From IMG/VR virus record IMGVR_UViG_3300045996_002772, positions 1 to 24,263 of that record: 24,263 nucleotides of DNA; one strand, 5' to 3'. A program made the position numbers and the translations under genes. This DNA is from a virus. The notes under the pieces are model-generated. The model had not been told where the DNA came from. It worked only from the letters and a program-made list of their open reading frames with translations, and did no database searches. Position 1 is the stretch's first letter, and each line of letters begins with the position of its first letter. Positions 1 through 22,987 of the stretch are shown here, one piece after another.

Positions 1-1630
1 GGTCCTGATCGACCAGTGGCTCATGGTCGGCGCTCTCGTTGCTTCCGTGCCTTCCATTCTGCTGATCTACCGGATCATCAGCGACGGCAATATCCGGTTC
101 GGCCGGGACCCGGAGTCCCTGTACGGAGATGCGCGCTTCGCAACCGTGAAGGATGGCAAGAAGAACAAGCTGCGCTATGCCTTCAAGCCCGATCCGACCT
201 GCCTGCTGCTCGGCAAGACGATGGGCTTCTTCGGCTGGTTCTGCCGGTACGTCATGCTTCCCGGCATCGAGCATGTCATGCTCTACGCCAAGACCGGCAC
301 CGGCAAGGGCATCTCGTACGTTCTGAGCAACTGCTTCAACTATATCTACAGCCTCGTCGTTCTCGACATCAAGCACGAGAACGAGGACGCGACGGCCCAT
401 CACCGTGAGGTCAACCTGGAACAGAAGGTGTTCAGCTTCTCTCCGCTGGCGGAAGACGGCTGTTCTCACTGCTGGAACCCTGTCGGCAACATTCAAGAGG
501 GCATGCCGGACTACATCTCTAAGCTCCAGAGCAAAGCCTTCAGCTTCTTCCCCGAGGTCGATGGCCGTGAGAAATTCTGGCAGAACGGCGCACGCTCGGC
601 GTGGCTCGGCAGTGCTGTCCTGCTGTGCGAGACCGCGTCCGATCCCAAGTACCGGAACGATCCTGACATGCAGCTCAACCCTGGCAATATCTTCCGCCTG
701 TTCACGCGCAGCGATGCCATCGAGGTGATCAGCGGCATGGTGGAGGAACGCCGCGCCAGCAGCCGCCCCTACTCCCAGACCTGCATCGACCTTTTGTCCG
801 ACTATGTCAACGGCACTGAGGAAGTGGTGAGCGGCGTGCGCCGTCACGTCACCAGCACGATGGGCCTGTGGTTCAATCCCCGCATCGTCGCCGTCACCAG
901 CCGCAGCGATTTCGATCTCCGTCAACTGCGCCGGGAGAAGATGACCATCTACGTCGGGGTCATGCCGTCCGATCTGGAAAAGCTCGGCGTCCTGCTCCGG
1001 ATGTTCTTTCTCCAGCTTTACGAGGACAACACCGACACCCTGCCGGAAAAGGACGAGACGATCAAGCATCCGGTCCACGTCATGATGGACGAGGCGACCA
1101 GCATCTCCGCGATGCGCGCGATTGCCAAGGCTGTCGGCTTTGCGCGCGGCTTCTGGCTGCACTTCTCCTTCGTCGTCCAGTCCAAGCATCAGGTCGAGGA
1201 GGAATACAAGGACAACGGCGCTGCCTCCCTCCTGGAGAACCTGGGTGCCGAGATCGTCTACGCCACGGACAATCTCCAGCTTATGGAAGAGGTCAGCAAG
1301 CGCGCCGGAGACAAGACCGTTGAGAGCGTCAGTCGCTCCATGCCGCGCTTCCTGAGCTTCTGGAGGGTCAAGGAACAGTCTGAGACCTTGGGCGTGATCC
1401 GCCGCCCCCTGATCCTGCCGCAGGACGTCAAGGAGCTTCCGAAGGATGAGGAATACATGTTCCGCGCCAGTTCCCCGGTGTTCCACCTCAAGCGGACGGA
1501 ATGGTTCACGGATCGGAACTTTAAGAACCTGAAAGGCAACTGGGTACGTCCGCCGCTGGTCCGCGCCACCCTCAAGCGGGACGACGGATCGATCAGCTTC
1601 GAGAAAAAAGGCAACAAAGAAGCCGCCTGA
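1..1630 (+). CDS. Type IV coupling protein, VirD4/TraG family (5' partial)
   Basis: An inner-membrane ATPase that, in this family, docks the relaxase-DNA complex onto a type IV secretion channel. The reading frame is open to the window edge, so the true start is probably outside; the first internal ATG is at 23. Numbering from that ATG, a hydrophobic segment (VGALVASVPSILLIYRII) forms an N-terminal membrane anchor. The Walker A motif is AKTGTGKG (Lys95), followed by LDIKHEN, the counterpart of the family's DIKGE. The Walker B motif is HVMMDEATS (Asp356/Glu357), followed by the conserved VVQSKHQVEEEY region. The C-terminal strand (RTEWFTDRNFKNL) matches the usual end of TraG proteins. The length of about 540 residues is normal. 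The gene ends before a probable terminator. It is the only conjugation gene visible; no relaxase or mating-pore gene lies in the window. The family call is firm; whether it serves the neighbouring phage genes is unknown. Confidence 0.9.
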   Translation, partial: VLIDQWLMVGALVASVPSILLIYRIISDGNIRFGRDPESLYGDARFATVKDGKKNKLRYAFKPDPTCLLLGKTMGFFGWFCRYVMLPGIEHVMLYAKTGTGKGISYVLSNCFNYIYSLVVLDIKHENEDATAHHREVNLEQKVFSFSPLAEDGCSHCWNPVGNIQEGMPDYISKLQSKAFSFFPEVDGREKFWQNGARSAWLGSAVLLCETASDPKYRNDPDMQLNPGNIFRLFTRSDAIEVISGMVEERRASSRPYSQTCIDLLSDYVNGTEEVVSGVRRHVTSTMGLWFNPRIVAVTSRSDFDLRQLRREKMTIYVGVMPSDLEKLGVLLRMFFLQLYEDNTDTLPEKDETIKHPVHVMMDEATSISAMRAIAKAVGFARGFWLHFSFVVQSKHQVEEEYKDNGAASLLENLGAEIVYATDNLQLMEEVSKRAGDKTVESVSRSMPRFLSFWRVKEQSETLGVIRRPLILPQDVKELPKDEEYMFRASSPVFHLKRTEWFTDRNFKNLKGNWVRPPLVRATLKRDDGSISFEKKGNKEAA

Positions 1631-1769
1631 TCCCGAATGCCACATGCCGGAGATGCGGGATGAACGAGATGATCGCCAGCACGAAGATGATGCCCAGAAT
1701 CAGCAGCTTGATCGTCACCCGGCAGAGCCAGCGGGCAAACAGAAACAAGTCAGCAGCGGCAACCAGCGG

Positions 1770-1795
1770 GGGCACCCTTTCCGGGGCGCCCTTTT
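1770..1795 (+). terminator. Probable rho-independent terminator after the coupling protein
   Basis: Arms GGGCACCC (1770-1777) and GGGCGCCC (1784-1791) pair with one A.C mismatch around the six-base loop TTTCCG and are followed by TTTT. The hairpin lies 139 bases after the coupling-protein stop and just before the next gene's ribosome site. The 1631-1814 gap otherwise holds no supported plus-strand gene. The complement has a G.U pair in place of the mismatch, but no T-run follows it on that strand. Confidence 0.6.
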
Positions 1796-1814
1796 GCCAT
1801 ACAGGATAGGACAG

Positions 1815-2519
1815 ATGACCACGGAACAACTCGTTACGATTTTTTTGACATTCTGTGTCGTGGTATGGTTGTGGCGTCAGGTCTGGCGCGTGGTGCGGCG
1901 GTACAGGCCGCGCATCAGACTCGGGGACTGGATGACGGGGACGGTTTATATTTTCTGGGACAGAAGCATGCCGAACGAGTCCCGGATCGTGAAGGTCGGG
2001 GTCACCCAGAGGCGGGACATCAACAAGAGGTTGACAGAGGTTCGGGACACCATGGGCGGCGACCCGGTCTGCATCTGGAAGATGGACCATGTGCCGTATC
2101 CCTATGCAGTGGAATTCTCCGCGCACCAGTTTCTCGACAGGTACCGGGTTCTGTGGCTCAAGGGATCGACGCGCGGAACGGAGTGGTTCTACGCAGTTGG
2201 GGACAAAGGGATGGCGCGGGTGATCGGGGCGGTAGAAAAGGCGGCGCGGCGGGTGCGCAAGATCGCCAAAGCGAAAAAGCGCTGGTCAGACAAGGCGGAT
2301 ATGTGGATTTCGGTATGGAAACTAACCGAATGGGGAGTGTCCAGAAGCTATCCGTTTCGCCAAGTTTCTGTGCGGGTGGAGCGGGAGCCGTCTAGGGGAG
2401 GCAGCGTTCCGAACAAGAATAAGCAGGTCAGAGGCAGCAAACCGACTCCCCCCACATCTCGGACCAGCCAAAGGGTCAGTCGGGCTTCCCAGCCAAGTTC
2501 TCGTCCGCGCGGCGTCTGA
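1815..2519 (+). CDS. Membrane-anchored T5orf172/MUG113 (GIY-YIG-like) domain protein
   Basis: The protein has 234 residues from the ATG at 1815, which follows an AGGATAGGACAG ribosome-site-like stretch. The frame stays open upstream to an ATG at 1644, but that start lacks a ribosome site and the extra residues look non-coding. Residues about 5-20 (QLVTIFLTFCVVVWLW) form one membrane segment, followed by a basic stretch. From about residue 42 comes a T5orf172/MUG113 domain: GTVYIFWD, then VKVGVTQRRDINKRL, VEFSAHQFLDRYR and GTEWFYAV. These correspond to the family's VY, KIG, lE..lH..f and EWF blocks. The C-terminal 60 or so residues are basic and Ser/Pro-rich. Known relatives are linked to GIY-YIG nucleases and are common in phages; the exact activity is not established. 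The stop lies 44 bp inside the convergent gene ending at 2476. Anchoring such a domain in the membrane is unusual. Confidence 0.75.
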   Translation: MTTEQLVTIFLTFCVVVWLWRQVWRVVRRYRPRIRLGDWMTGTVYIFWDRSMPNESRIVKVGVTQRRDINKRLTEVRDTMGGDPVCIWKMDHVPYPYAVEFSAHQFLDRYRVLWLKGSTRGTEWFYAVGDKGMARVIGAVEKAARRVRKIAKAKKRWSDKADMWISVWKLTEWGVSRSYPFRQVSVRVEREPSRGGSVPNKNKQVRGSKPTPPTSRTSQRVSRASQPSSRPRGV

Positions 2520-2748
2520 GTTCCTTCCTGTCCGCATTGACGCGGTTGAACCAGAACTGAATTTCGTCCTCCGCCATGTTGCGGTTTTCCCTGACCGCAC
2601 TCGCCAGAAGCTGACGAAACTGCTCGACCGTGCGGGCGGCGCTCTCCGCCTCCCGCGACGGCCTCTCTCCCGGACGGTGACGGTTGCGTTCCACCTGAAT
2701 CGCAAGGTCCAGGCCGGTCAGAATCAGGCTGGCTACCAGCGGGATCAT
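2476..2748 (-). CDS. Small membrane-anchored coiled-coil protein, candidate inner-membrane spanin
   Basis: The protein has 90 residues. Residues 2-19 (IPLVASLILTGLDLAIQV) are a short hydrophobic anchor. The rest is charged and likely helical (AARTVEQFRQLLASAVRENR, then FNRVNADRKELRRRADENL), as expected for an Rz-like i-spanin that spans the periplasm. The start codon overlaps the stop of the upstream lipoprotein gene (ATGA), so the two are translationally coupled. It is the last gene of the minus-strand block and overlaps the convergent T5orf172 gene by 44 bp. Spanin function is inferred from position, topology and partner; no diagnostic motif is seen. Confidence 0.6.
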   Translation of the reverse strand: MIPLVASLILTGLDLAIQVERNRHRPGERPSREAESAARTVEQFRQLLASAVRENRNMAEDEIQFWFNRVNADRKELRRRADENLAGKPD

Positions 2749-3119
2749 TGTGTACCTCTCATTGCAACGACCATCTCATCTCCGACCGCGTCGAGATCCT
2801 TGATGGCCTGATTGAGCCGGGGCAAGTCCTGCCGAAGCAGAGCCTGTTCCCCATCCTTCTGAACGGCGGCGGCGAGATCATCGATCTCAGCCATCTCATC
2901 CACCACCACATCGCACGATTTCACTTCAGCGGAGAAAGCTGCGTCGCACGTCTTGGCGTATTCCAGGGCGGCGTGCTGGCGCTCGCTGTAGCGGGCCATA
3001 GCGCGCCCCCAGAGGGTTTCAGGCTGCGTGCTGGCACCCGTGGAGTGGGGGAAGTCTGGCGGCAGGTTGACGCATCCAGAGAGCACCAGAACGAGCGCTA
3101 CGGTGACAAGGGTTTTCAT
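2745..3119 (-). CDS. Lipoprotein, candidate outer-membrane spanin
   Basis: The protein has 124 residues and begins MKTLVTVALVLVLSGC, a classical type II signal peptide with the lipobox LSGC and acylated Cys16. The mature start is proline-containing (CVNLPPDFPHS), and the remainder is acidic and predicted helical. Two further cysteines lie in the middle (KTCDAAF and KSCDVVV). The gene overlaps both neighbours by ATGA: the hydrolase upstream (stop at 3116) and the small coiled-coil protein downstream. A lipoprotein next to a small anchored coiled-coil protein behind a hydrolase fits an Rz1/Rz-like pair, although it is longer than typical Rz1 and the order is reversed relative to lambda. Confidence 0.65.
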   Translation of the reverse strand: MKTLVTVALVLVLSGCVNLPPDFPHSTGASTQPETLWGRAMARYSERQHAALEYAKTCDAAFSAEVKSCDVVVDEMAEIDDLAAAVQKDGEQALLRQDLPRLNQAIKDLDAVGDEMVVAMRGTQ

Positions 3120-3853
3120 TCTCCTTCACTCTCCTTGCTGGTTTGCTCAACCTCTCCCGGAGGAATATCGGTCGCCCGGTTGCGCACGAAATACTGGGTG
3201 ATCAGGGTCACCGCCAGAACGAGGACGCTGGCGATTTCCGTGGCGTACTCGGTGGTCAGCGGGCTTTCCGGGAAGATCCGGTTCCAGACCACCATCAGCA
3301 TGAAGGCGCATGCACCCACAATTCCGCCGACCACCAGTTTGCGGGTCGGCATGGCGCTTGGCTGATCGACCAGCGGTGGGGTTTTGGCAGTGGGAGATTT
3401 CGGACGGGGTCTCTGGGACGGCACCGGCTGCGCCTGATGCGTGACGTAGGCCGCATCGATGGCGGAGTCCAGTTCTGCATCACTGTACGGCTGAGAGCCG
3501 CACTCGACGCGGATCATGACGTCCATCAGGCGACGCAGGGTGAGCTTGTCGTTGAGATCGATCTTGCCGTCCGGATTGACGCCCATGGCTTTCGCCACAG
3601 TGCTGATATAGGCGTCTGTCGGATTATTGTCAGAGGGCGGTGCCCAGGAGGAAATAATGGCGGAGACGGTATCCCGCTTGTGGACCCGGTAGTAGGTCAG
3701 TAGGTTTTTCGCGCCTGCCCTGAGTCCGTGGAAAGAGGTCTGGAACTGGACGAAACCGGGGTCAGTCTGCTCCACCCGCATGCCGATCCACTTGTCCCCG
3801 GATGGGCGCAGGTTGAGGGGATTGTCGTTAGAAATCCCGCGCGGAATTGTCAT
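3116..3853 (-). CDS. Phage peptidoglycan hydrolase-like protein with a C-terminal two-helix holin-like region
   Basis: The protein has 245 residues. The N-terminal part (1-137) has the RGISNDNPLNLR opening, FQTSFHGLRAGAKNLLTYY, and SSWAPPSDNNPTDAYI. These are hallmarks of a phage family often annotated as structural protein P5 or lysozyme-like, thought to cleave peptidoglycan. A conserved Glu near residue 117 (RVECG) is a candidate functional residue. A Pro/Lys/Gln-rich linker (about 138-167) follows. Two hydrophobic helices then appear (LVVGGIVGACAFMLMVVW and IASVLVLAVTLITQYFV), ending in a charged tail like that of small holins. The start follows CAGGTAAAATAAC. The gene sits 24 bases after the third CNPLQE paralog and overlaps the lipoprotein gene. 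Its role as endolysin is inferred; the helices could instead be a membrane anchor. Confidence 0.75.
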   Translation of the reverse strand: MTIPRGISNDNPLNLRPSGDKWIGMRVEQTDPGFVQFQTSFHGLRAGAKNLLTYYRVHKRDTVSAIISSWAPPSDNNPTDAYISTVAKAMGVNPDGKIDLNDKLTLRRLMDVMIRVECGSQPYSDAELDSAIDAAYVTHQAQPVPSQRPRPKSPTAKTPPLVDQPSAMPTRKLVVGGIVGACAFMLMVVWNRIFPESPLTTEYATEIASVLVLAVTLITQYFVRNRATDIPPGEVEQTSKESEGE

Positions 3854-3877: not shown

Positions 3878-4354
3878 TTATTTCATGCTGTCCGGAATGG
3901 GCAGAGTGATCGGTGGCGCATCGGTTTCGAGCGGCCAGTATTCCTGAAGCGGGTTGCAGTACCACGTGAAGCGGACATTGAGCGTCATGTTGCCTTCACG
4001 GTTGCCGAACGCCTCATCCGGGATCGGGATGGACTCCATCCACTTGACCGGCCCCTTACCGTCATTGGTAACCGCATCCTTGTGGGGGAGTGCCGTAGCC
4101 GGCAGGTTGATCGGAGCGTCCGAGAAAACCCAGCTTGCCGTCTGGCCGAGGCACAGTCTGTTGCGCTCTCCAGACCATTGGATGCGGGCGATGGGCGGAT
4201 TGAGGCTTTCCCACGCCACGAAGCGCCCCGTGATATGCCGGATCGGCATTTTCCTATCCACAGCCCAGTATCCCATCAGTGCTGCCGGAATCAGCGTCAG
4301 CAGGGCCAGGATCGCGGCGGCAATGGTAAAAGAAGCAGAGATCAGGTCTCTCAT
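3878..4354 (-). CDS. Membrane-anchored CNPLQE-motif protein, paralog 3
   Basis: The protein has 158 residues. An N-terminal hydrophobic segment (SASFTIAAAILALLTLIPAA) is followed by a periplasm-facing domain containing RIQWSGERNRLCLGQTASWV, a set of prolines, and VRFTWYCNPLQEYWPL near the C-terminus. It is the most divergent of three adjacent paralogs but keeps the same two cysteines and the CNPLQE box. It lacks the PSYxVSTGH block of the other two. The ribosome site GGAGGA lies about ten bases before the ATG, and the gap to the upstream paralog is 25 bases. I do not recognise a characterised family. Its place just before the hydrolase suggests a lysis, membrane or host-exclusion role, which is inference only. 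Confidence 0.75.
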   Translation of the reverse strand: MRDLISASFTIAAAILALLTLIPAALMGYWAVDRKMPIRHITGRFVAWESLNPPIARIQWSGERNRLCLGQTASWVFSDAPINLPATALPHKDAVTNDGKGPVKWMESIPIPDEAFGNREGNMTLNVRFTWYCNPLQEYWPLETDAPPITLPIPDSMK

Positions 4355-4379
4355 GAAAAACGCTCCTCCGGGGTCCTGG

Positions 4380-4937
4380 TCATTTCTTCGTGGGAGGCGT
4401 CAGGTTATGCCCAGGACCGCTCGCCGGTTGATTTTTGACCGGCAACTCGAAGCGGACAGGTGGTGGGTTGTCCACGATGGGGAACATCCGCTCCTGGAGG
4501 GGATTGCAGCCGTACAGGAAGCGGGCGCGGTACTGGCCCGAGTGGTGGCCGGTCGAGACGAAGTAGGACGGCACATGGACCGGGACTTCCCAGGTAAAGA
4601 TCTCGTTCAACTGGGTCGGCTCCGACTCGGCCGGGTACGGTATATCGGTCAGCGGCAGCCGGAACCCATCCACGATCCAGCGGTTGGAGACGCCGCCGCA
4701 GCGCCGCCGCAGGATTCCGGTCCAGCGCACGACGAACACCCAGGAGTCATCCATCTGCTTCTGGTAGAGGATGACTTCGCCTTTGTGGACCTCTATCGGC
4801 AACCGTCTGTCCAGGAGAACCCAGTAAACGCACACGGACATTCCGGCCAGAATGATGGCGGTGAACAGGGTGAGGCCCCACTTGACCAAGGAATCACGCC
4901 TCGGAATGTGGAGAAGCCCTTTGAGATGGGATGTCAT
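4380..4937 (-). CDS. Membrane-anchored CNPLQE-motif protein, paralog 2
   Basis: The protein has 185 residues. It begins with a short cytoplasmic stretch and DSLVKWGL, followed by a transmembrane segment (LFTAIILAGMSVCVYWVLL). The extracytoplasmic domain carries EVHKGEVILYQ, VVRWTGILRRRCGGVSNRWI, the block PSYFVSTGHHSGQY and YGCNPLQERMFP. A Pro/Lys-rich tail ends the protein. The start overlaps the stop of paralog 1 (ATGA). The two cysteines are at the same places as in the neighbours and may form a disulfide in the periplasm. The function is not recognised. Confidence 0.8.
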   Translation of the reverse strand: MTSHLKGLLHIPRRDSLVKWGLTLFTAIILAGMSVCVYWVLLDRRLPIEVHKGEVILYQKQMDDSWVFVVRWTGILRRRCGGVSNRWIVDGFRLPLTDIPYPAESEPTQLNEIFTWEVPVHVPSYFVSTGHHSGQYRARFLYGCNPLQERMFPIVDNPPPVRFELPVKNQPASGPGHNLTPPTKK

Positions 4938-5509
4938 TTTCCCACGTCCCCTGGAAGAAAATTCTCGATCTGACTGGCATCGAGATTGACTTTCTTCATC
5001 GGCATGTCTGTTGGGATCTCAAACTCGACCGGTTTGGGAGTGACGATGACGGGAAAGAGGTATTCTTGCAGGGGATTGCAGGCGTAGGCGATCCGGATGC
5101 TATACTGCCCGGTGGTGTGGCCGGTGCTGACGTAGTAGGACGGGATCTCGATCGGCACCTCCCAGGTAAAGCGGCCGATTTCCTGGTCAGGTCGATCTGG
5201 AGGATAGGGGATATCGGGCAACGGCAACACGAAGTCTCCGGATATCCAGCGCTTCGAATTGCCCCAGCATTTCCGGTGGCGGTCTCCGTGCCACCTGATG
5301 ATCATTACCCAGGAGTCGTTTGCCTGATGCTCGAAGCGCACAACTTCGCCGTAGTGGACCGTTACCGGAGCGCTCCTGTCTATCAGGAGCCAGTACACGC
5401 AGAGCATCAATCCACTGAGGATCGTGCTGGTGCAGGCGATCAGGCCCCACTTGACGACACTGTCCCAGTTTAGTCTCAGACTCGAGATCTTGTAACCTAG
5501 TTTCATCAT
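4934..5509 (-). CDS. Membrane-anchored CNPLQE-motif protein, paralog 1
   Basis: The protein has 191 residues from the ATG at 5509, chosen because it forms a TGATG stop-start coupling with the coiled-coil gene upstream. The frame is open to an ATG at 5584, but that would lie inside the coding region of its neighbour. The protein has DSVVKWGL, a transmembrane segment (ACTSTILSGLMLCVYWLLI), then VTVHYGEVVRFEH, IIRWHGDRHRKCWGNSKRWI, PSYYVSTGHTTGQY and YACNPLQEYLFP. It matches paralog 2 closely along its whole length, which indicates tandem duplication. Topology is predicted as N-in with a beta-rich periplasmic domain. The function is unknown. Confidence 0.75.
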   Translation of the reverse strand: MMKLGYKISSLRLNWDSVVKWGLIACTSTILSGLMLCVYWLLIDRSAPVTVHYGEVVRFEHQANDSWVMIIRWHGDRHRKCWGNSKRWISGDFVLPLPDIPYPPDRPDQEIGRFTWEVPIEIPSYYVSTGHTTGQYSIRIAYACNPLQEYLFPVIVTPKPVEFEIPTDMPMKKVNLDASQIENFLPGDVGK

Positions 5510-5949
5510 CAGCCCGATGTTCCCGGAAGTTTGCCATTCGTGATCGCGAAGAGAGCTCCGATGAACAGCGTTGCGACGAGACACAGACCACCGAGCAGGA
5601 AGGATTCTATCCGTGATGTTCTTTTGTCGAAGTCTTCTTCAACTTCTTTGAGTTTTTTCTCGTGGGCGTCCGTTATCTCCTTGTCCTTCTTCTCAACCCT
5701 GTCGGCGATATCTCTAGTCTTCTTCTCAAGGTTATCCGCCACCTCCTTGGTGAGACGCTGTGTGTCGTTTGCCAGTTCGTGAAAGCGTTTCTGGATGGCG
5801 TCGTCCAGTTCCCGGTTCTTGCGATCCGCTTGATTGCGAAAGGATCGTATCTCCCTCTCCATTGCCTCTATCCGGTACTCCAGGAGATCAGCATTGCTCG
5901 ACATTTTTATTTTTCTGGGAGGGAGGTCCTCTTCATATCCGTCTGTCAT
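5509..5949 (-). CDS. Coiled-coil protein with C-terminal membrane anchor (XhlA-like layout)
   Basis: The protein has 146 residues. Residues about 20-112 are a long, highly charged coiled coil (runs such as EAMEREIRSFRNQADRKNRE and ADRVEKKDKEITDAHEKK). Residues about 115-137 (FLLGGLCLVATLFIGALFAI) form one transmembrane helix with a very short tail. Small phage proteins of this layout (for example hemolysin XhlA) sit in lysis cassettes beside holins, but no specific XhlA motif is visible. The ribosome site GGGAGAA lies about nine bases before the ATG. A second Met at residue 17 lacks a ribosome site. The stop overlaps the start of paralog 1. Confidence 0.7.
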   Translation of the reverse strand: MTDGYEEDLPPRKIKMSSNADLLEYRIEAMEREIRSFRNQADRKNRELDDAIQKRFHELANDTQRLTKEVADNLEKKTRDIADRVEKKDKEITDAHEKKLKEVEEDFDKRTSRIESFLLGGLCLVATLFIGALFAITNGKLPGTSG

Positions 5950-5982: not shown

Positions 5983-8085
5983 TCAGTCGTAACTCACCAG
6001 GCTTGTGAAGATGTCGAGCCACTTTTGGACGGCATTCGCATCGCCCTGCTTTGGAAGTGGGATCTTGGTGCCGTCAGGCAGGGCTGCGTCTTCCAGCTTC
6101 CGGCTGACGCTGGGGTAGCTGGAAAATCCACCGACCTGGGACTGGTGATCGACCCAGCCGGAGGATTTGGTGGCGAGCTTCTTGGCAATCCGCGCCACTG
6201 AGGCGGGGCGCTTGGCGATCTTCGGCATCGGCCCAGAGTTGTTGACGATGCGGTCGAAGATTTCACTGGAGGTCAGCGCCTTGACAGTGTGTCCGGGCGG
6301 CTGGATCGGTGGCTTGGAAGTGAGGACCTTGACACCCTTGGAGCCTTGGGTCGGCTGCGCCTTCGAGAAGGTCACCTTAGTGCCTGGGGTGATGGCACCG
6401 TTCGAGCCTTTCCACCCGTACAAGTTCGAGACAAAGACGGCGGAGCCGGACGGCCACTTGTCGGGATAGGCGTGGAACCGGAACCCCGTGGCATCGCTGC
6501 TTTGCGGGCCGGAGATGACCAGGATACCCTGACAGTTGACCAGACACGCGGCGGACGGAGCCGGGGTGCGGTTCTGCTGGATCGTGACACCCTGACGCAC
6601 ATTCATCAGGATGTTGTTGGCGATCACGGTGGTGGTTCCGTGGTCGATGAAGGGGCAGCGCATATACATGTCGCTGAAGAGGGAATACTGAACATCGACC
6701 TTCTTGGTGTTGAAGCCGATCAGCATGCCGTAATTGTGCTCACCCTGCTTCTTGGCCTTGACCTTCTCGTGAGCGCCGTAGCCCAGCTTCTGCGGACGCC
6801 ACAGCGGCTCCGCGAAGATGCAGTTGGTGAAGGAGACGTTGCTGAGCTTTCCAGCGTTGGGCCAAATCTCGACCGTCTCGTCCAGTCCCCACATGAAAGA
6901 GCAGTGGTTGAAGTGGATGTTGGAGCGGGACCAGCGGCTGCTGTCGGCTCCGGGAGACACCTTCAGGCAGTCCGCGTTGCCGAGATTGCTGGCATCGTGG
7001 CCGCGCTCGAAATTGATGTGCTCGACCCGGATGAAGGACGCCTTGACCTGCAATTCCTTGACCTGGACCGTGATGCCGCTACCCGGTGCGGTCTGTCCGG
7101 CGATGGTGATGTTATCCGCCTCAATCAGCAGCGTGCTCTTGAGCTTGATGCAGCCGCCAACCTCGAACACGATCATGCGATTGCCGCCCTTGATCGCCTC
7201 CCGCAGGGAACCGGCACCGCTGTCGTTCAAGTTGGTGACGCGGTAGAACGGCTTTCCGGCACCGCCCGACATGGCCGTGGCGAAGCCGACTGCGCGCGGG
7301 TACTTGCCAGTCGGGGGTATCGGGAGTTCTCCGCCCTGACCGGGGTCTTCGGCCGGAGTTTCCGGAGGCTCCTCCGGCGTCGGATCTGGAGCCGAGTTCT
7401 TGCTGGCATCTTCGATGATGGTCACTTCCGCCTTGCCCAGGCCGACCGTGCAGTTGACCGGGTTCTTGACGTAGATGTGCAGAATCTCGTCCGTTTCGGC
7501 TTCCGTGTCTGCCAGCAGCGGCAGCGTCGCTATGGCCTGCATCTGGTCTTCCGAGAAGCTGACCGTCACGTTGCTGTAGCCGCTGTAGTCTTCCAGGGTG
7601 CGGGCGGTGTCCCCCGCCGTCACGAGACTGACCTGACAGGCACCGGTGCCGATCTTGGTCAGGGGAATGGCAAGGTCGGTTCCCTCCAGGCCGCTGACCT
7701 TTTCCGCGATGCTAACGACCGGCAGTTCCGGAGGGGACGGCGGAGCCGGAGGGGTCGTGACGTCGGTGATCGTGACGTCGCAGCGGGCCTGCATGATGAC
7801 GCAGTTGTCCGGGTTGACCGCCCAGACCGTCATCGTCTCCTCTCCCTCTACCAGATCATCCGGGAGCGTGACCAGCAGGCCGACATTCTCTGTCTGGCCT
7901 TCCGTGAAGGTGACGAGGTGGCCTTCCCCGATATCCGTGTAGTCCGGGGGCGTGGTGGCGGTTATCCCGGAGGTTCGCAGTTGGACGGAGCAGGCACCGA
8001 TACCGGTCTTGGTCAGCGGGATCTGGATGGACTCTCCTTCCTTGACGGAGAGAACCTGCGGCAGACTGACGGTGATAAGAGACAC
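5983..8085 (-). CDS. Tail spike with two Calx-beta domains and a pectate-lyase-like beta-helix (smaller paralog)
   Basis: The protein has 700 residues and starts at a GTG with AAGGAA nine bases upstream. Residues about 5-108 and 122-228 are two Calx-beta domains, each with LxxKxGxGACxV followed by an acidic loop and an NPxNC strand. A Pro/Glu linker (about 230-262) follows. From about 265 comes a right-handed beta-helix like the pectate lyase family that carries ITIAGQTAPGSGIT: AVGFATAMSGGAGKPFYRVT, then FNHCSFMWGLDETVEIWP, FAEPLW and EHNYGMLIG. In cellular relatives the third block reads DHCS..W..DE; here the Asp is Asn. The protein probably cleaves host surface polysaccharide during adsorption. 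Substrate and catalytic residues cannot be read from sequence. It closely resembles the next gene upstream. Confidence 0.85.
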   Translation of the reverse strand: MSLITVSLPQVLSVKEGESIQIPLTKTGIGACSVQLRTSGITATTPPDYTDIGEGHLVTFTEGQTENVGLLVTLPDDLVEGEETMTVWAVNPDNCVIMQARCDVTITDVTTPPAPPSPPELPVVSIAEKVSGLEGTDLAIPLTKIGTGACQVSLVTAGDTARTLEDYSGYSNVTVSFSEDQMQAIATLPLLADTEAETDEILHIYVKNPVNCTVGLGKAEVTIIEDASKNSAPDPTPEEPPETPAEDPGQGGELPIPPTGKYPRAVGFATAMSGGAGKPFYRVTNLNDSGAGSLREAIKGGNRMIVFEVGGCIKLKSTLLIEADNITIAGQTAPGSGITVQVKELQVKASFIRVEHINFERGHDASNLGNADCLKVSPGADSSRWSRSNIHFNHCSFMWGLDETVEIWPNAGKLSNVSFTNCIFAEPLWRPQKLGYGAHEKVKAKKQGEHNYGMLIGFNTKKVDVQYSLFSDMYMRCPFIDHGTTTVIANNILMNVRQGVTIQQNRTPAPSAACLVNCQGILVISGPQSSDATGFRFHAYPDKWPSGSAVFVSNLYGWKGSNGAITPGTKVTFSKAQPTQGSKGVKVLTSKPPIQPPGHTVKALTSSEIFDRIVNNSGPMPKIAKRPASVARIAKKLATKSSGWVDHQSQVGGFSSYPSVSRKLEDAALPDGTKIPLPKQGDANAVQKWLDIFTSLVSYD
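7981..8052 (-). repeat. Calx-beta direct repeat, copy in the smaller spike
   Basis: About four in five bases match 10228-10299. The segment encodes the opening of the first Calx-beta domain (VKEGESIQIPLTKTG.GACSVQL). It marks shared ancestry and possible recombination between the two spike genes. Confidence 0.6.
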
Positions 8086-8116
8086 GAGGTTGCGTTCCTT
8101 TCGGGCATGGGAAGGG

Positions 8117-8142
8117 ACCCGCTCCCCGACTGGAGAGCGGGT
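8117..8142 (-). other. Strong hairpin between the two spike genes
   Basis: On the minus-strand transcript, ACCCGCTCTCC and GGGGAGCGGGT pair over 11 positions (one U.G) around the loop AGTC, 18 bases after the larger spike's stop. The complement would have a C.A mismatch at the same place, so the fold is best on the transcribed strand. No U-run follows, so it may stabilise or process mRNA or attenuate transcription rather than act as a classical terminator. Confidence 0.5.
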
Positions 8143-8160
8143 TCGCCTCTTGGCCGTTTC

Positions 8161-10626
8161 CTAGTCGTTCTGGATCTGGTCCAGGTGCTTTCGCAGCCAC
8201 GCTTTCATGCTGGCCTTGCTGGTGGCTGTGGCGGGCTGCGGCTGGGCCGGAATTTCACCGATCAGGGTGCCATCGGGGAACTTGGCCGTAGCATTGAGGG
8301 TGCGGTCAACCTTGGTTGCCTTGTAGTATCCGCCGTATTCGTCCTGATGGTTGACCCACGCGCCGGTTTTGTCCTTCAGCCGCTGGACCGTGCGTCTGAC
8401 ATCCTTGTTTCCGATCGTCATGGTTCCGGCCATCAGGGCGCGGATTTCCTTCGGCCTGGGACCGACGTTGAGAAGGGCGCGGTCGTAGATCTCCTGACCG
8501 GTCAGACCTACGGTCGCCGTTGGCGTGTCTATCGGCGGGGTGGAGACCTCGACCGCTTTCTTGACTGTGCCGTCGAGCCAGTACGGCTTCCCGACCACGC
8601 CGTCATAGCCGGTGGAACTGCTGCCATAGGTCACCACCTCTTTGGGGGTCTGGTAGGTGCTGTTGGCGGGTCCGCCCTTCATCCCGTACAGGCCGGAAAC
8701 ATGGACGGCAGAATACTTCGGTTGCTTAACGCGGTAGGAGTTAAACCGAAACCCGCCGTAGATGCTGGTTCCGGTGTTCGGACCGCTGATGCAGAGATAG
8801 CCCTTGCACGTGATTTTGTAGACAGAGGAGTCCAATAGGTCAATGTTGTAGATAAGCTTTCCGCTAGAGTCATATTGATCCGGATTTTGCTGGATCGTGG
8901 CACCTTTCGTGCAGTTGTTGGCTATGTTATTGGCTAAAACCACTTCAGTAGAGCGATCAATGAAGGGTTCCCTCATATCCATGTCTGCAAACAGACAGTA
9001 TTGAAGGTCTACTTTTCTTGTTTCGTGACCGACAAGCAGCCCATAGTTGTGCTGAGACTGATAGGGTGGCCCGTCCACCTTTGGGTGATTTGATAAGGTG
9101 CTGTCGTAGGTGCTCGGCTTCCAGAGCGGTTCCGCGATGATACAGTCGTGGAAGGAAATATTTCTACAGATCCAGTAATTCCCAGGATAAAGTGAAATTG
9201 TTTCGTCCATCGACCAGTAGAAAGCACAGTGAGAGAAGTGGATGTTCTCAACGACTGGCTGTGGACTCGGAGGCGTTCCTTGATCTGGCGCTATCATGAC
9301 GACATCGGAATTTCCGAGACTGAGATTGGCGTGATAGCCTTTCTCAAAGGTGATATGAGAAATGCGGATGTTGGATTTGACGATATGGATAGTGTCCTGA
9401 GTATGTGTGGTGACGGTATCTCCTTTTATGAGCGTGATGCCGGGAGCGGGGGCCGTTTCCCCCGCGATGGTGCAGTTCGCACCAACATTCAAACGGGTTA
9501 ACAACTCGATGGTCCCGCCGACTTCGAACACGATCATGCAGTTGCCCGCCGCTGCCCCCTGCCTGAAGCTGCCAGCCCCGCTATCGTTCAGATTGGTGAC
9601 CTTGTAGACTGGCAGGCCGAGACCGCAGTCGGCGGCACTGGCGAACCCGACTGCTTGCGTTAGGGCCGTTTGGACCGGCGTTTCCGGGGAATTGGCGTCG
9701 AGCAGAGCCACCTTGCACGTCGCCGTGGTGATGGTGCAGCCGGTGGGGTTCTCCAGGAGGATGTTGAAGTATTCCGTTCCCTCGACCAGCGCATCCGTCA
9801 GGGTGGTGACGGTGATCGTCTTCTGTGTCTCATTGGCACCGAAGGAGAGGGTGGTAACGTCTTGACCAAGGTAATCGCTGAGATGAACGAAAGCGGTGTC
9901 GGCGGATGTTCTCCAGGTGACGGAGCACGCCCCGGCTCCGACCTTACTGACGATCAGGCTGAGAATGCCCCCTTCCTTGACGCTCGCGGTCGTGGGCACC
10001 GATATTCTGGGAGGCTCTGTAATGGTGATCTCTCCTGACGAATTTCCGAGGGTGCAGTTGGTTGGAAGGCTCAGCTCGATCTTGAGTTTGTGATCACCCT
10101 CCGGTTCCGCGTCAAGGATGGTGACCAGTGGCACGTTGATGATTGTGTCGTTGGCCCCGAAACTGAAGACCTGCAAAAAGCCGGTGTAGTCGGCTGGAGT
10201 TAGCGCCGTTCCGCCGATGGTTCTGAGTTGGACGGAGCAGGCCCCGACGCCGTTCTTGGTGATCGGAATCTGGAGCGTGTCGCCTTCCTTGACGGACAGG
10301 CTGGACGGAATGCTGACAACCGGTTTCGGCACCTCCGCCACGGGCGGGACGTAGTTGAGATCGGATGAGACCAGCAGGGCGTTGTTCTCCACCAGCGGCG
10401 CTATCCAGCCGGAGACCTGCTCGATCAGAAAGCTTCCGGGCGTATAGCCGTTCGGCTCGGTGGCTCCGAAGCGCAGGGCCGCGACCGTCAGCGGGATCGA
10501 GGGCGTGTTGTTACCGACCGCCTGTTCCGAGATCTTGGTGCCGCCACTGTAGAGCGCTATCCTGGAGGTACTGTCAACGGTCATCAGGACGGTAACTGAC
10601 TCGCCACGTGGTGCGGTGTTTGGCAT
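8161..10626 (-). CDS. Tail spike with Calx-beta domains and a pectate-lyase-like beta-helix (larger paralog)
   Basis: The protein has 821 residues. The first 110 or so are a beta-rich region (VTVLMTVDSTSRIALYSGGT) absent from the smaller paralog, possibly the attachment part. Two Calx-beta domains follow (about 113-210 and 213-310), each with GACSV and a second Cys near the last strands. From about 322 the beta-helix begins (AVGFASAADCGLGLPVYKVT), with CTIAGETAPAPGIT, FSHCAFYWSMDETISLYP, AEPLWKP and QHNYGLLVG. The C-terminal part contains KTGAWVNHQDEYGGY and ends in a basic tail. Putative depolymerase or adsorption spike. The stretch encoding about residues 420-600 is clearly more A/T-rich than its flanks, which suggests module exchange. 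Start ATG with AGGG about nine bases upstream. Confidence 0.85.
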   Translation of the reverse strand: MPNTAPRGESVTVLMTVDSTSRIALYSGGTKISEQAVGNNTPSIPLTVAALRFGATEPNGYTPGSFLIEQVSGWIAPLVENNALLVSSDLNYVPPVAEVPKPVVSIPSSLSVKEGDTLQIPITKNGVGACSVQLRTIGGTALTPADYTGFLQVFSFGANDTIINVPLVTILDAEPEGDHKLKIELSLPTNCTLGNSSGEITITEPPRISVPTTASVKEGGILSLIVSKVGAGACSVTWRTSADTAFVHLSDYLGQDVTTLSFGANETQKTITVTTLTDALVEGTEYFNILLENPTGCTITTATCKVALLDANSPETPVQTALTQAVGFASAADCGLGLPVYKVTNLNDSGAGSFRQGAAAGNCMIVFEVGGTIELLTRLNVGANCTIAGETAPAPGITLIKGDTVTTHTQDTIHIVKSNIRISHITFEKGYHANLSLGNSDVVMIAPDQGTPPSPQPVVENIHFSHCAFYWSMDETISLYPGNYWICRNISFHDCIIAEPLWKPSTYDSTLSNHPKVDGPPYQSQHNYGLLVGHETRKVDLQYCLFADMDMREPFIDRSTEVVLANNIANNCTKGATIQQNPDQYDSSGKLIYNIDLLDSSVYKITCKGYLCISGPNTGTSIYGGFRFNSYRVKQPKYSAVHVSGLYGMKGGPANSTYQTPKEVVTYGSSSTGYDGVVGKPYWLDGTVKKAVEVSTPPIDTPTATVGLTGQEIYDRALLNVGPRPKEIRALMAGTMTIGNKDVRRTVQRLKDKTGAWVNHQDEYGGYYKATKVDRTLNATAKFPDGTLIGEIPAQPQPATATSKASMKAWLRKHLDQIQND
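10228..10299 (-). repeat. Calx-beta direct repeat, copy in the larger spike
   Basis: This is the partner of 7981-8052; both begin ttggacggagcagg on the plus strand. It encodes the first Calx-beta opening (VKEGDTLQIPITKNGVGACS). Confidence 0.6.
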
Positions 10627-10655: not shown

Positions 10656-13600
10656 CTAGGAGGAGAGGAAGCGTATATCGATCACCGCGCCGACAGGCGG
10701 CGCTTCCGTGAAGCTCAACTGGGTCACACCCGTGCTGGTGTTGTAGGAACCGGGGAGCTGAAGCACCCCATCAATCATCACCAGGATAGACGTTGGTCCA
10801 GGTACCGAGATCGGCATGCTCAGAGTCGTTGACGTTCCCGTGGAGACCGTTTCGTGACGCAACGTGTTGGGACCGATGCCGCGCAGGGAAACGATGGCGT
10901 CCAGAGGCGGAGCCTGACTGAAGGCCAACTGCCCCGCAGAGACGGTATACGATGACGATGGCTGAATGACGCCGTCGATCATTGCCAGAACGGTCGCCAC
11001 GCCATTCGAATATCCTCCTGGCAGGGTCCAGATCGTCCGGGTTCCGGTGCCCAGGCTCTCGACCAGGACGGAGGCGTGCGAGAGACCCCTGACATCGATC
11101 ACGGCACCCGGCGGCGGCGCTTCGCTCAGCGTCAAGGTGTTGCCACTCAAGCTGTAGGCGTGGCTTGACTGCAAGGCACCGTCTATCGCGACAATCAGGG
11201 TATAGGGAGCGCCATCGGTCCCGCTGTCCGGCAGTTCCCACACCGTCTGGGAACCGTTCGCCACAATTTCCGTGAACAAAAGAGGGACTGCCCCGGCCAA
11301 GTCATAGGACATTTCGCCATTTTTTACAACAACTCCGTTGATGGCCTGTGCCACATCCTTCGCCATCCACAGCCGCTGGACGGATGGCGCGTCTCTTAGC
11401 CGCCGGAAGCGGACACCGAGAGAGTACGACTGGCGCTGGTGCCATGTCCCGGCAGCCTTGAGCACATCCGCCGCCCTGACGGTTTTAGCACTGGCTCCGG
11501 TGACGATGATCGGCGAGGACTGACCGATGCCCGGTTCGATCTGGACATGCGCGATATCAAATCCATTGCCACCGGTTCCGGAAATGTTGGTGGTCCCATC
11601 CAGCGCGGACTTGGCTATCTCAAGGAGAACGGAGATTCCCGAGGAGGTTCCCTGCGGCCTGCCGAGAGACACGCTGTACCAGGAGTTTCGGAACGGGTCT
11701 CTCTCCAGCGTGGCGACAATATCAGGCGCTACCAGTTTTACGGAACCGGGACCGGTCAGATCAAGGGTGATGGATTTATAGATGTTGTCCACTCCGCGAA
11801 CGGTGATCGTGTAATACTGCCACCCCACCGGACGGATCAGCAGAGAGGTCGTGAACGGACCATCGGACAACTGGCTGTTAGAGGATGTCAGAACAAGGGA
11901 AAGCTTGTGCTGCCCGACTTCCGTTGTTTCCCTGAATTGGACTTGTTTGGTGCCTGTCGGGGTGACTTCACCAAGAGAAACCGTTTTGGACCCGCCCGTC
12001 GCGGTGAAGCCGGGATCAACACTGTCGAACAGTTGTTGTTCCGTCCCGGCAGCCTCTATCAGAAGACCGGAACTTCCGGGAGAAACGAAGTGGGCACGGT
12101 AACCATTGACGCCGAATTGCGTCCACACCCCGCCGTTGTCTCTCGCCCACGCCGGAGACGTCCTTGTGAGAGAGAATGTTCCGGGCAGGGTTGCGCCGAA
12201 CTCCGCCTTTGTGGTTGCGGCGGCGTTTTCCGGCATCTTGCGCAGCAGGAGGATTTCGCACACGCCGTTGTCGATGGTGGCTCCGGTGGCGCTGCCGAGA
12301 ATGATTTTGAAGGTCTTGTCCGAGACCTCTCCGCGCGGCATCAGGCTAACCGTGATGATACCGGACGTCTGACCGACCGGAATAACCAACTGGCCGCCGC
12401 CCCCAACATAGTCGGTTCCGGAAAGTCCCGTGCCGTCCACCGTGTTGTAGCTGATCGTGGTTCCAATCGGCTCTCCGGTCATCAGAACCAGCAGGGAGAC
12501 GACACTGGCGGAGGATATCACCGCCATGGTCGGCTGGACGCTGATGACCGGCTTGCCGTCATCCTCGAACTCCTGGGTAAGATCTCCGGAGTAGGAGATC
12601 GCGGCATCCTGCGGCAGCGCCTCCGACCAGAATTTCATCTGCTTCAGCAGAACCGGCCCGCCATTGGTTCCGGTGACGTTGTCTCCGAAGCGGATCGAGG
12701 AGAGGTTGCTGGCAACGGTTGTTCCGGTGTTGTCACTGCCGATCAGGATGCCATCCTGAGTCATCAGGGCGCTTCCTGCGGCCACCGTGAAGACGACCGT
12801 CCGCTCCACCCCGGCAGCGGGAGCTGTCGCGTTGATCAGGGCTGACTGCTGTCCGTTGGCGAGTGCGGAAAACACGACGGTCCCCGGACCATTCCGAAGC
12901 TCCATCAGGTCAGTCCCGGAGACGCTTAGGACGGTTGAGACGGCTTTGCCCAAGGGAGTGTAGGTCAGGCCGATTGTCTTGGCACCGCCAGAGATCCAGT
13001 CCGCCGTTGATGTCAGAACATCGGCCGGTCTGACGACCACGGACGTCCCCGGATTGATAATGGGCGAGGTTGCTTCTGGACCGATCTCCGCACCGATGTA
13101 AGCCAGATGGTAACCGGACGCGCCATCTCCGGCGAAGGTTCTGGTCCCCGCGCTGTTGACGAAACCGCCGTTGAAACTGGGCATGGTCGCTCCGGCCTGG
13201 AAGTTGTTGACGACCGTCATCAGATAGAAATCGTCCGTGTCCCTGGTGATCTCGGCGCTGGTGACACCGGTTGTCTCGACAACGGAGCCGTCACCTTCGA
13301 GCAGGAAGCGGGCGGAGGAGTAAACGTTGTTCTTGTTCAGTAAGAAGAATGTGATGCCCTTGTAGATGCCGCTTGGCCGAACCACCGCCGTCAGCGCCGC
13401 CGTCGTGTTGTCCGGGATGGTCGTGGCATGACTGCTGATGCCGAAGTAGAGGTTCCACCCGTGATGGGCGCTGACGGCGTTCGGAACGAAGTGGACGGCC
13501 CCCAGGCCGAAAGGCGTCTGCACGCTGGCGTCGAAGTCCGCGCTGGACTGGACGGCGGTTGGAGTCGGCTGACGTGTGCGGTAGACAAGTTGCGTCCTCT

Positions 13601-13823
13601 CCGGCTCGACCAGAGTGTAGCGGGCAGCAAGGGTTCTGGGGTCGTACCAGGAGCGCGGCGTGTTGGGGGGGAACTGCACCCAGCGCCCGCTGTTGTCCCG
13701 GCCCAGCGCGGTTCCCGTTGTCCGCGTCAGGCTCAGGGGAACGGCGAGAGAAACGGCACTCAGGTCCAAGTTGACATCCGCCGAGGCCAGCGTCTCCTCC
13801 TCATCCTCATCGAAAAACCACAT
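10656..13823 (-). CDS. Large multi-domain tail adhesin with duplicated binding modules and three C-terminal repeats
   Basis: The protein has 1055 residues. Two modules open with the phage motif of the form SLTRTTGTALGRDNSGRWVQ (about residue 31) and SLTRTSPAWARDNGGVWTQ (about 551). Such openings usually precede lectin-like beta-sandwich domains in tail proteins. Each module continues with an RPSGIYKGIT or RPVGWQYYTIT block and an AADVL segment. Between them (about 430-525) is a Calx-beta-like domain (GTTISYNTVDGTGLSGTDYV). The last 200 or so residues are three repeats of about 68 residues (MIDGVLQ, then SFTEAPPVGAVIDIR). No catalytic domain is seen, so binding or scaffolding of the spikes is the likely role. 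The start lies three bases after the tail-fibre stop. Confidence 0.75.
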   Translation of the reverse strand: MWFFDEDEEETLASADVNLDLSAVSLAVPLSLTRTTGTALGRDNSGRWVQFPPNTPRSWYDPRTLAARYTLVEPERTQLVYRTRQPTPTAVQSSADFDASVQTPFGLGAVHFVPNAVSAHHGWNLYFGISSHATTIPDNTTAALTAVVRPSGIYKGITFFLLNKNNVYSSARFLLEGDGSVVETTGVTSAEITRDTDDFYLMTVVNNFQAGATMPSFNGGFVNSAGTRTFAGDGASGYHLAYIGAEIGPEATSPIINPGTSVVVRPADVLTSTADWISGGAKTIGLTYTPLGKAVSTVLSVSGTDLMELRNGPGTVVFSALANGQQSALINATAPAAGVERTVVFTVAAGSALMTQDGILIGSDNTGTTVASNLSSIRFGDNVTGTNGGPVLLKQMKFWSEALPQDAAISYSGDLTQEFEDDGKPVISVQPTMAVISSASVVSLLVLMTGEPIGTTISYNTVDGTGLSGTDYVGGGGQLVIPVGQTSGIITVSLMPRGEVSDKTFKIILGSATGATIDNGVCEILLLRKMPENAAATTKAEFGATLPGTFSLTRTSPAWARDNGGVWTQFGVNGYRAHFVSPGSSGLLIEAAGTEQQLFDSVDPGFTATGGSKTVSLGEVTPTGTKQVQFRETTEVGQHKLSLVLTSSNSQLSDGPFTTSLLIRPVGWQYYTITVRGVDNIYKSITLDLTGPGSVKLVAPDIVATLERDPFRNSWYSVSLGRPQGTSSGISVLLEIAKSALDGTTNISGTGGNGFDIAHVQIEPGIGQSSPIIVTGASAKTVRAADVLKAAGTWHQRQSYSLGVRFRRLRDAPSVQRLWMAKDVAQAINGVVVKNGEMSYDLAGAVPLLFTEIVANGSQTVWELPDSGTDGAPYTLIVAIDGALQSSHAYSLSGNTLTLSEAPPPGAVIDVRGLSHASVLVESLGTGTRTIWTLPGGYSNGVATVLAMIDGVIQPSSSYTVSAGQLAFSQAPPLDAIVSLRGIGPNTLRHETVSTGTSTTLSMPISVPGPTSILVMIDGVLQLPGSYNTSTGVTQLSFTEAPPVGAVIDIRFLSS
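10659..11280 (-). repeat. Three tandem repeats of about 68 residues
   Basis: The units share an I/MIDGxxQ block, a Ser-Tyr turn and an SxAPPxxAxxxxRG close. They read AIDGALQ/LSEAPPPGAVIDVRG, MIDGVIQ/FSQAPPLDAIVSLRG and MIDGVLQ/FTEAPPVGAVIDIRF. They form the C-terminus of the large adhesin. Similar repeats are known in phage tail fibres, where they probably form small beta domains. Confidence 0.7.
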
Positions 13824-13826
13824 GGA

Positions 13827-15329
13827 TCAGGTGCTCGCGTGAGTGATGGAGAAAACGAAATCCGCCGTCGATGTGCCCTGTGGAGACAGACTCAGGCTCA
13901 GGCGAGAACCGGCGGGAACCTGCAAAGCTTCTCCGGGAATGATTTCCGTGACGCCGGTTGTTCCGGCTGTTCCGGAGATGATGGTCGTGTTATCCGAATT
14001 ATCCCCTGGTTCCATGCCGAGAAAAACGCTGAAGTTCACGGTGCCGGTGCCGCACTGCGCGGCGACGCTACTGATCGAGATCGGGTTGGCCGATTTGAGC
14101 ATCAGCGTGTAGGTCTTTTGCTTCGGCTTCTCGATCATGCCGCTCAGGGTTCCGGCGATGCCGATGATCCGGCGTCCGGCCGTTGCGAGATGTCCTCCCA
14201 GACTTGGGTTGGCATCCGCCTGAACGTTCGGTATTCCCGAAACCGGCATCGGCTGGCCGCGCCAGACCTTGTCCGCCTCAAGCCGCAGGATCTGTCCGGG
14301 AGAGGCGTTGAGAAGGTCCGTATCCGGACTGTCGGACAGCTTCTGCCTTCTGACGGTGATCGTGTACTGGCCTGTGGTTTCGCCGGATACCGTGAAGTGG
14401 TCGGCATTGAACAGGAGGCTGCGGAAGCGGAGTGACGTGTTCAGCTTGTCGGAGAAGACCCGGACCACGTTGGTGCCAGTCGCCCCAAGGTTCTCTCCGG
14501 TATTGGCCTCTCCAGTCGGGGTGGTGGTGCCGCCGCCCGTGCCGCTGCCGCTGATCACGATGTCGTTCTGATCGCGGACGACGCTGACACCGTTGACGCC
14601 ACGCAGGCCGTAGGTGTTGAGCGTGGCGCTGGTCTTGGGAGCCACGATGGAAACGGACTCGGCGCTTCCCAGACTAGCCAGGGTGTTGATTTCCCCCACG
14701 GCGGGCACCGTGATGGTCAGCCGGTCTGTATTCTGGGTCAGGGTGCCGCCGACAACCTGGATAGCGCGGAACTGGTGCGCGCCGGAAGCATTGACCCCGG
14801 CGTAAACCTGCCCGATCCCGGCTCCGGCATTGGTCAGGTTGATTAGGGAGACGTTGAGCGAGGCTGGTGAGGCAAAGCCGTAACTCCCGTCCGCCATCTT
14901 GGTCATGACCTGCCCGGTGAGCGCGGTCGATGAGTTCAGATCCTTGATGCTGGCAATCGTGATATCCGCGCTGGAGCCGCCGCCGCTGGAGCCGAGATTG
15001 CGGGTCAGGTCGGCGTCGATGTCGTAGATCGCGCGCCTGACAATCATGGTCGCTTCGACGTCGTTCGGTCCTGGAACCGCGAAGCCTCTCGGGGTGAAGT
15101 CCGTGTGCAGCAGATAGAAGACGCTGTTCTTGGAGTTTCCCTGGTAGGCGGCACTCAGGACGATCTGATCCTCCGCCAGAACGGCGGCAACCGTGTAGGT
15201 GATCCCCTCGTCCCGGACGGTAAACCAGTGCCCCGGCTCGATGCCCGAGCTTTTCCACGTGGTTCCCAGACCGAACACGGTTGCGGAGTTGGTCGTGACC
15301 GTGACGGTCCCGGTGCGGTATTGTGCCAT
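13827..15329 (-). CDS. Tail fibre protein
   Basis: The protein has 500 residues. The N-terminus (MAQYRTGTVTVTTNSATVFG, then GTTWKSSGIEPGHWF) is a widespread phage tail-fibre opening, probably the part that attaches to the virion. The centre carries IYDIDADLTRNLG and a Ser/Gly linker, then repetitive beta-rich sequence (VFSDKLNTSLRFRSLLFN). The last 95 residues (KTYTLMLKSANPISISSVAA to FVFSITHAST) are a compact beta domain found at the ends of other tail proteins. The gene lies between a small tail protein and the large adhesin, with gaps of 33 and 3 bases. GGAG lies about 11 bases before the ATG. The receptor is unknown. Confidence 0.8.
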   Translation of the reverse strand: MAQYRTGTVTVTTNSATVFGLGTTWKSSGIEPGHWFTVRDEGITYTVAAVLAEDQIVLSAAYQGNSKNSVFYLLHTDFTPRGFAVPGPNDVEATMIVRRAIYDIDADLTRNLGSSGGGSSADITIASIKDLNSSTALTGQVMTKMADGSYGFASPASLNVSLINLTNAGAGIGQVYAGVNASGAHQFRAIQVVGGTLTQNTDRLTITVPAVGEINTLASLGSAESVSIVAPKTSATLNTYGLRGVNGVSVVRDQNDIVISGSGTGGGTTTPTGEANTGENLGATGTNVVRVFSDKLNTSLRFRSLLFNADHFTVSGETTGQYTITVRRQKLSDSPDTDLLNASPGQILRLEADKVWRGQPMPVSGIPNVQADANPSLGGHLATAGRRIIGIAGTLSGMIEKPKQKTYTLMLKSANPISISSVAAQCGTGTVNFSVFLGMEPGDNSDNTTIISGTAGTTGVTEIIPGEALQVPAGSRLSLSLSPQGTSTADFVFSITHAST

Positions 15330-15362
15330 GAACTCAAGGCTCCAGAAGGTGGGGAGTCCGCG

Positions 15363-21986: not shown

Positions 21987-21996
21987 AGTTGTCGCC

Positions 21997-22791: not shown

Positions 22792-22950
22792 CAGGGGGCT
22801 TCCCGGCTTGGGGGTGGCGGCACAAAACGCGGCCAAGTTTGGCAAATCCTCTGAAGCTTTTTCTCCAGAAGATTTGCGAAACCTGAAACGCTAAGTGATT
22901 GAAATTTAACGGATCAGCAAAAGCTGTAGGTTTGCTCTAGGTTCGGTTTA

Positions 22951-22982
22951 GCTTAAGCACTTAAACTTAAACTTAGACTTAA
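22951..22982. repeat. Palindrome GCTTAAGC followed by four tandem ACTTAA-type hexamers
   Basis: GCTTAAGC (22951-22958) is followed directly by ACTTAA, ACTTAA, ACTTAG and ACTTAA (22959-22982). The spacing is exactly six bases. It could be a protein-binding array or a simple slippage repeat. Confidence 0.7.
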
Positions 22983-22987
22983 GAAAG

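Follow-up and report, generated by a model that had tools for sequence, protein, structure and literature searches.

A VirD4/TraG-type coupling protein gene beside phage lysis genes: a possible fragment of an alphaproteobacterial conjugative phage-plasmid

Closest described systems

Phage-plasmids have been treated as elements that move as virions and are passed on vertically as plasmids, and relatives of P1 that gained a relaxase or an oriT have been described as having lost the phage route (PMC10879196, PMC12977533). Conjugation functions (relaxase, oriT) are reported mainly in P1-like plasmids whose phage genes were lost, the exceptions being two P1-like phage-plasmids (PMC10879196, PMC12977533). 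A literature search with the exact phrase "conjugative phage-plasmid" gave no match; because that search did not include the main 2021 catalogue (Pfeifer et al. 2021), absence from the literature is not established and we claim no priority.

The described element most pertinent to this study is pSR-4 of Skermanella rosea (NZ_CP086115), a complete circular plasmid of 100,864 bp. Its virion side comprises a siphovirus-type head and tail set, with TerL, portal, capsid and tape measure, as well as a lysozyme. Its transfer and partition side carries VirB1-VirB11, VirD4, a MobF relaxase, ParB and a ParA-type ATPase, with virB11 directly preceding virD4. Because pSR-4 has no tyrosine integrase, and no direct repeat above 22 bp was found around its phage genes, a phage-plasmid that carries a conjugation operon is a likelier interpretation than an ordinary prophage within a plasmid. 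PLSDB types pSR-4 as non-mobilizable, and the text of the S. rosea genome paper does not mention phage or conjugation (PMC11767975). Some 2 kb from its phage lysozyme gene, the plasmid has a further mobilisation module (NZ_CP086115 75652-76557 and 81305-82837; L003 25652-26557 and 31305-32837), which consists of a MobA/MobL relaxase gene and a divergent gene for a TraG-like ATPase. Relatives of this second TraG-like ATPase occur mainly on small plasmids of 11-31 kb.

Two other groups are useful for comparison. P-type conjugative plasmids of the Acetobacteraceae and Methylobacteriaceae (here Roseomonas p5-HV1, Lichenicola unnamed7 and Methylorubrum pMPPM04, of 30-41 kb) have no phage genes in the stretches read. 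Rhizobial phages and phage-plasmids of the RHEph10/pLM21S1 type measure about 110-120 kb, and the plasmids compared were Shinella unnamed3 and Sinorhizobium pLM21S1. In the stretch of Shinella unnamed3 that was read, RepC is present and conjugation genes are absent; this plasmid, too, is typed non-mobilizable.

A coupling protein gene next to lysis genes

The DNA analyzed here ("the window") is an entire linear IMG/VR virus record of 24,263 bp (IMGVR_UViG_3300045996_002772), and nothing can be read beyond either end. The G+C content is even across the window (53-64%) and continuous over the junction between VirD4 and the phage genes, and the window has no tRNA gene. Two independent virus contigs, G001 (IMGVR_UViG_3300034069_002149; 143,333 bp) and G002 (IMGVR_UViG_3300004463_000541; 29,119 bp), are its main relatives; like the window, both are fragments. 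The features of the window are:

2..1630, plus strand: VirD4/TraG-type coupling ATPase, 542 aa, 5' end open at the contig edge
1593..1775, minus strand: possible small membrane peptide ORF, from translations and alignment; GTG start probably near 1775
1815..2519, plus strand: T5orf172-domain protein (GIY-YIG-type nuclease fold by family), convergent with the lysis cassette; PF10544, E 8.5e-10
2476..2748, minus strand: Rz-like inner spanin candidate; weak PHROG 5151 match, E 0.037; 85% identity in G001
2745..3119, minus strand: small lipoprotein, outer spanin candidate from its lipobox-like N-terminus (LSGCVN) and position; 76% identity in G001
3116..3853, minus strand: phage endolysin/structural lysozyme with C-terminal hydrophobic segments; PHROG 873, E 1.4e-49
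3878..5584, minus strand: three tandem paralogous membrane proteins (158, 185 and 216 aa); cross-matches among the three in G001
5509..5949, minus strand: coiled-coil protein with a C-terminal membrane segment, 146 aa; 79% identity in G001
5983..10626, minus strand: two paralogous pectate-lyase-like tail-fibre/hydrolase genes; PHROG 27797, E 1e-29 and 6e-29
10656..23894, minus strand: tail-fibre and tail-tip genes, including tip protein J, tail assembly protein and NlpC-type minor tail protein; PHROG 31 (E 5e-243), PHROG 32 (E 6e-48) and PHROG 30 (E 4e-64)
23286..23891, plus strand: HNH gene, among the tail genes at 10656-23894

The original prediction recognized a complete-looking VirD4/TraG ATPase domain at the left end, and by sequence homology the assignment of 2-1630 to this family is confirmed, far beyond chance. 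The ORF matches PF02534 (T4SS-DNA_transf) with E 3.2e-76 and 257.5 bits (cut-off 20.1), PF12696 with E 2.7e-18, the Pfam family TraG-D_C with 66.5 bits (cut-off 22) and PF10412 with E 4.9e-10. Walker A (AKTGTGKG), Walker B (VMMDE) and the QS..Q box (QSKHQ) are all present, and no PHROG phage family matches the ORF. The ATPase domain is complete and the gene is incomplete, because virD4 runs off the contig start. In an alignment with the pSR-4 protein, residue 2 of the fragment is opposite residue 58, which puts about 56 N-terminal residues beyond the contig start; a single transmembrane segment is left at the N-terminus, and the first transmembrane helix was probably lost along with the missing residues.

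The small membrane-peptide reading frame at 1593-1775 overlaps the 3' end of virD4, and its membrane segment is similar in G002. The first bases of G002 (GCCTGA) were considered as the end of a VirD4 gene, an interpretation that was dropped since the minus-strand small ORF aligns without that gap.

The T5orf172 gene probably starts at 1815 instead of 1644, because homology with G001 begins there, and this start leaves about 185 bp between the VirD4 stop and the T5orf172 gene. The encoded protein is 82% identical in G001 and about 52-56% identical in G002, and the gene occupies the same position in both. The distance from the VirD4 stop to the first ORF of the lysis cassette (2476-3853, minus strand) is 845 bp, in good agreement with the value of about 850 bp predicted for the separation of the ATPase gene from a hydrolase/lipoprotein cassette. 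The PF10544 match likewise bears out the prediction of a T5orf172 gene between the two, and the "coiled-coil" member assigned to the phage cassette corresponds to the 146-aa ORF at 5509-5949. Plasmid relatives of the window lysozyme are mostly found on Klebsiella plasmids of about 110 kb. The three membrane-protein paralogues adjoin the lysis cassette and are kept in both G001 and G002; none of them has a Pfam or PHROG match above threshold.

The remainder of the window had been described as virion genes, and the PHROG matches agree: the lysis side is followed by siphovirus-type tail and tail-fibre genes. The pectate-lyase-like pair likely encodes tail-associated polysaccharide-degrading enzymes, and it arose by a duplication older than the divergence of the window from G001 and G002. 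Two guest types occupy one site, the slot that separates the minor tail L gene from the NlpC-type gene: the window, L015 and L016 have an HNH gene there, and G002 and another related contig, G005, have an IS605 OrfB-type gene (L014 6464-7597) 69% identical to one in pSR-4.

The phage side in related virus contigs

Sequence comparison indicates that the phage side of the window is a real, replicated lineage. Over the stretch that runs from the minor tail protein gene to the T5orf172 gene, G001 and the window are colinear, with 57-90% protein identity, the variable HNH gene excepted. For G001 and G002 together, the tail, fibre, lysis and T5orf172 genes are colinear with those of the window at about 50-90% protein identity, and the order from lysis genes to T5orf172 in G002 is identical to that in the window. 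Five virus contigs, G001 included, have a tail tip 71-82% identical to that of the window. G001 also encodes a terminase large subunit, a portal protein and a major head protein. The terminase large subunit gene of G001 is interrupted by an intein (L008 11825-14935), and a DpdA-like protein in the same contig (L005 11096-12184) suggests 7-deazaguanine modification of the phage DNA.

The ends of the related contigs are of particular interest. G005 terminates within the lysozyme gene. The left end of G001 lies within a gene, and its other end is the first base of the T5orf172 start codon (window 1815). G002 can be aligned beyond this start as far as approximately window 1667, leaving some 40 bp to the VirD4 stop. 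The ends of G001 and G002 therefore differ, corresponding to window 1815 and about 1667 respectively, and both fall within about 190 bp of the VirD4 stop; the two contigs neither confirm nor refute the junction itself. Virus pipelines cut proviruses at gene boundaries, so it is plausible that the parent contig of G001 runs on into genes, such as those for conjugation, that would be scored as non-viral. A true phage boundary at this point would also account for the end of G001.

No VirD4/T4SS coupling protein was found in the related contigs, including the 143 kb of G001, nor was VirB4; the contigs end before the VirD4-equivalent region. ParA, RepC and tyrosine integrases were not found in G001, G002 or G005, all of them partial records. 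A single sub-threshold ParB_N match (n=1) falls within a methyltransferase of the partial G001 record, and the sole recombinase among the G001 ORFs scanned is a resolvase-type protein of 305 aa. Searches of viral contigs for VirD4 relatives with the single protein, an alignment and two degenerate DNA patterns gave no hits, and a scan with a T5orf172-motif pattern returned just the two known relatives, which served as positive controls. No relative spanning the VirD4/phage junction was found, and megablast with the whole window as query found no match among phages or plasmids. Two scans of bacterial genomes (for VirD4 and for the tail tip), based on a few weak peptide patterns, also gave no match, which does not argue for absence. 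VirB4-type matches in 50,697 phage records were confined to three unannotated gut-metagenome contigs.

Kinship with plasmids

Of the VirD4 proteins encoded in 72,556 plasmid records, that of pSR-4 is much the closest to the window protein, with 59% identity; the next plasmids reached at most about 38%. The window and pSR-4 proteins are sisters in a tree of 12 VirD4 proteins (support 100/100), and in neither does the C-terminus extend as far as in most others (583 aa in pSR-4 versus 603-732). The Acetobacteraceae and Methylobacteriaceae plasmids introduced above have the same VirD4 family with virB11 directly upstream, but their proteins are 35-38% identical with a longer C-terminus, and their relaxase neighbours are different. 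In 10/10 plasmids examined other than pSR-4, virB11 or a related T4SS ATPase gene lies directly upstream of virD4.

The likeness to pSR-4, another alphaproteobacterial element in which virion genes and a VirB/D4 operon share one circle, does not extend to the phage genes. The virion, lysis and tail genes of pSR-4 have no detectable similarity to those of the window. None of the other 19 window proteins had a match in 100,000 bases of pSR-4, and so what the two elements have in common is limited to the conjugation part. Downstream of virD4, pSR-4 has other genes and MobF whereas the window has T5orf172 and the lysis genes, and pSR-4 is smaller than the IMG/VR phage lineage of the window (143 kb, partial). 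Tail tip J is about 32-34% identical, over most of its length, to that of RHEph10/pLM21S1-type elements, and its best plasmid matches include pLM21S1 and others of about 117 kb. Shinella unnamed3 has the same gene order (minor tail L - NlpC/P60 - tail tip) as the window. The relationship to this group is distant only.

Interpreting the junction

The window directly displays a VirD4 gene with its nearest kin in pSR-4, and phage genes conserved up to the junction. The best supported of the explanations considered, to which we give an even chance, is that the window represents part of a conjugative phage-plasmid of alphaproteobacteria, in which VirB11 would lie immediately beyond the left end of the contig. 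The original prediction had proposed either a phage-plasmid or a mosaic junction; the pSR-4 kinship and the colinear phage side speak for the former, and the latter keeps some probability (see below). Virion genes, as a phage-plasmid should have, are present as the tail and lysis genes of the window and the head and packaging genes of G001. Also in favour are the colinearity of G002 to within about 40 bp of the VirD4 stop, the end of G001 at the T5orf172 start codon (as expected if a pipeline trimmed a non-viral neighbour), a VirD4 codon usage that is not foreign to the phage genes, the lack of integrase in the relatives and pSR-4, and the matches of the tail tip to pLM21S1 and other plasmids of about 117 kb. 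No relaxase is encoded among the window ORFs, and the expected place of a relaxase and oriT is off the contig; nor is a VirB or replication gene visible in the lineage of the window. Evidence against this explanation includes the lack of VirD4 and VirB4 in related contigs even though G001 is 143 kb, the lack of ParA and RepC in the three contigs and of any junction-spanning relative, and a kinship with pSR-4 restricted to conjugation genes.

Perhaps the phage instead inserted into, or formed a cointegrate with, a conjugative plasmid or ICE next to virD4, in which case the two parts adjoin by chance and the phage makes no use of the conjugation genes. We consider this doubtful, if credible. A true phage boundary would also account for the ends of both G001 and G002, about 190 bp or less from the VirD4 stop; neither contig has T4SS genes, and in pSR-4 related T4SS genes are paired with an unrelated virion module. 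However, the two relatives stop at different points, tyrosine integrases are lacking in G001, G002, G005 and pSR-4, and the only recombinase seen in G001 is of the resolvase type. An att site between VirD4 and the phage genes, which the original prediction named as a sign of unrelated neighbours, finds no more of a counterpart than one 13-nt repeat pair around the junction, at chance level. Moreover, the codon usage of VirD4 is at the edge of, yet compatible with, the range of equal-sized pieces of phage genes. It is improbable that virD4 is a captured gene, on its own or in the company of a few mobilisation genes but with no full VirB operon, through which the phage is mobilised by a resident conjugative plasmid or interferes with it. 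VirD4 is indeed the sole conjugation gene in view, and the MobA and divergent TraG-like pair near the pSR-4 lysozyme gene demonstrates that mobilisation modules beside lysis genes exist, but virD4 ends the VirB operon in pSR-4 and the 10/10 other plasmids, with virB11 or a related ATPase gene directly upstream. A metagenomic chimera between the end of a phage contig and a plasmid contig is unlikely, and we assign it a low probability. The contig start lies inside virD4, such phage contigs end beside the same point in two other samples, and the junction is unreplicated, all as a chimera would have it. Nevertheless, the conservation of G002 up to some 40 bp short of the VirD4 stop would confine the join to those roughly 40 bp or to the interior of VirD4; the G+C content is continuous, the codon usage compatible, and no repeat able to drive such a join was found at 1500-2800.

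If the window does derive from a conjugative phage-plasmid, the element would be large, alphaproteobacterial and siphovirus-type, and the end of its lysis genes would adjoin a P-type (VirB/VirD4) conjugation operon at its 3' end. This virB1-virB11-virD4 operon would finish with virD4, and virB11 would lie immediately before virD4, beyond the contig edge. While the element persisted as a plasmid, in a lysogen-like state, VirD4 would hand its relaxase-bound single DNA strand over to the VirB channel, so that the element could move between cells without lysis. After induction, particles would be set free through the action of the virion genes and of the lysis genes (endolysin, spanins). The T5orf172 gene may be an accessory nuclease-fold gene between the conjugation and phage modules. 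For the element in the window, we infer the VirB operon, relaxase, oriT, plasmid replicon and both modes of transfer.

Implications

A conjugation motor gene beside phage genes would be a variant of the known phage-plasmids. The broader proposal, a lineage of large alphaproteobacterial phages with a complete VirB/VirD4 apparatus beside the lysis genes, spreading both as virions and by conjugation, is tentative and falls a little short of an even chance. If it is true, the window and pSR-4 together would imply that conjugation operons related to each other have become combined with two or more unrelated virion modules. The firmest by-product of this analysis is pSR-4 itself, a complete and culturable case with both modules that is open to direct test. 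If both modules work, such elements would transmit themselves by two routes that differ in host range and cost, and plasmid cargo would be moved into phages.
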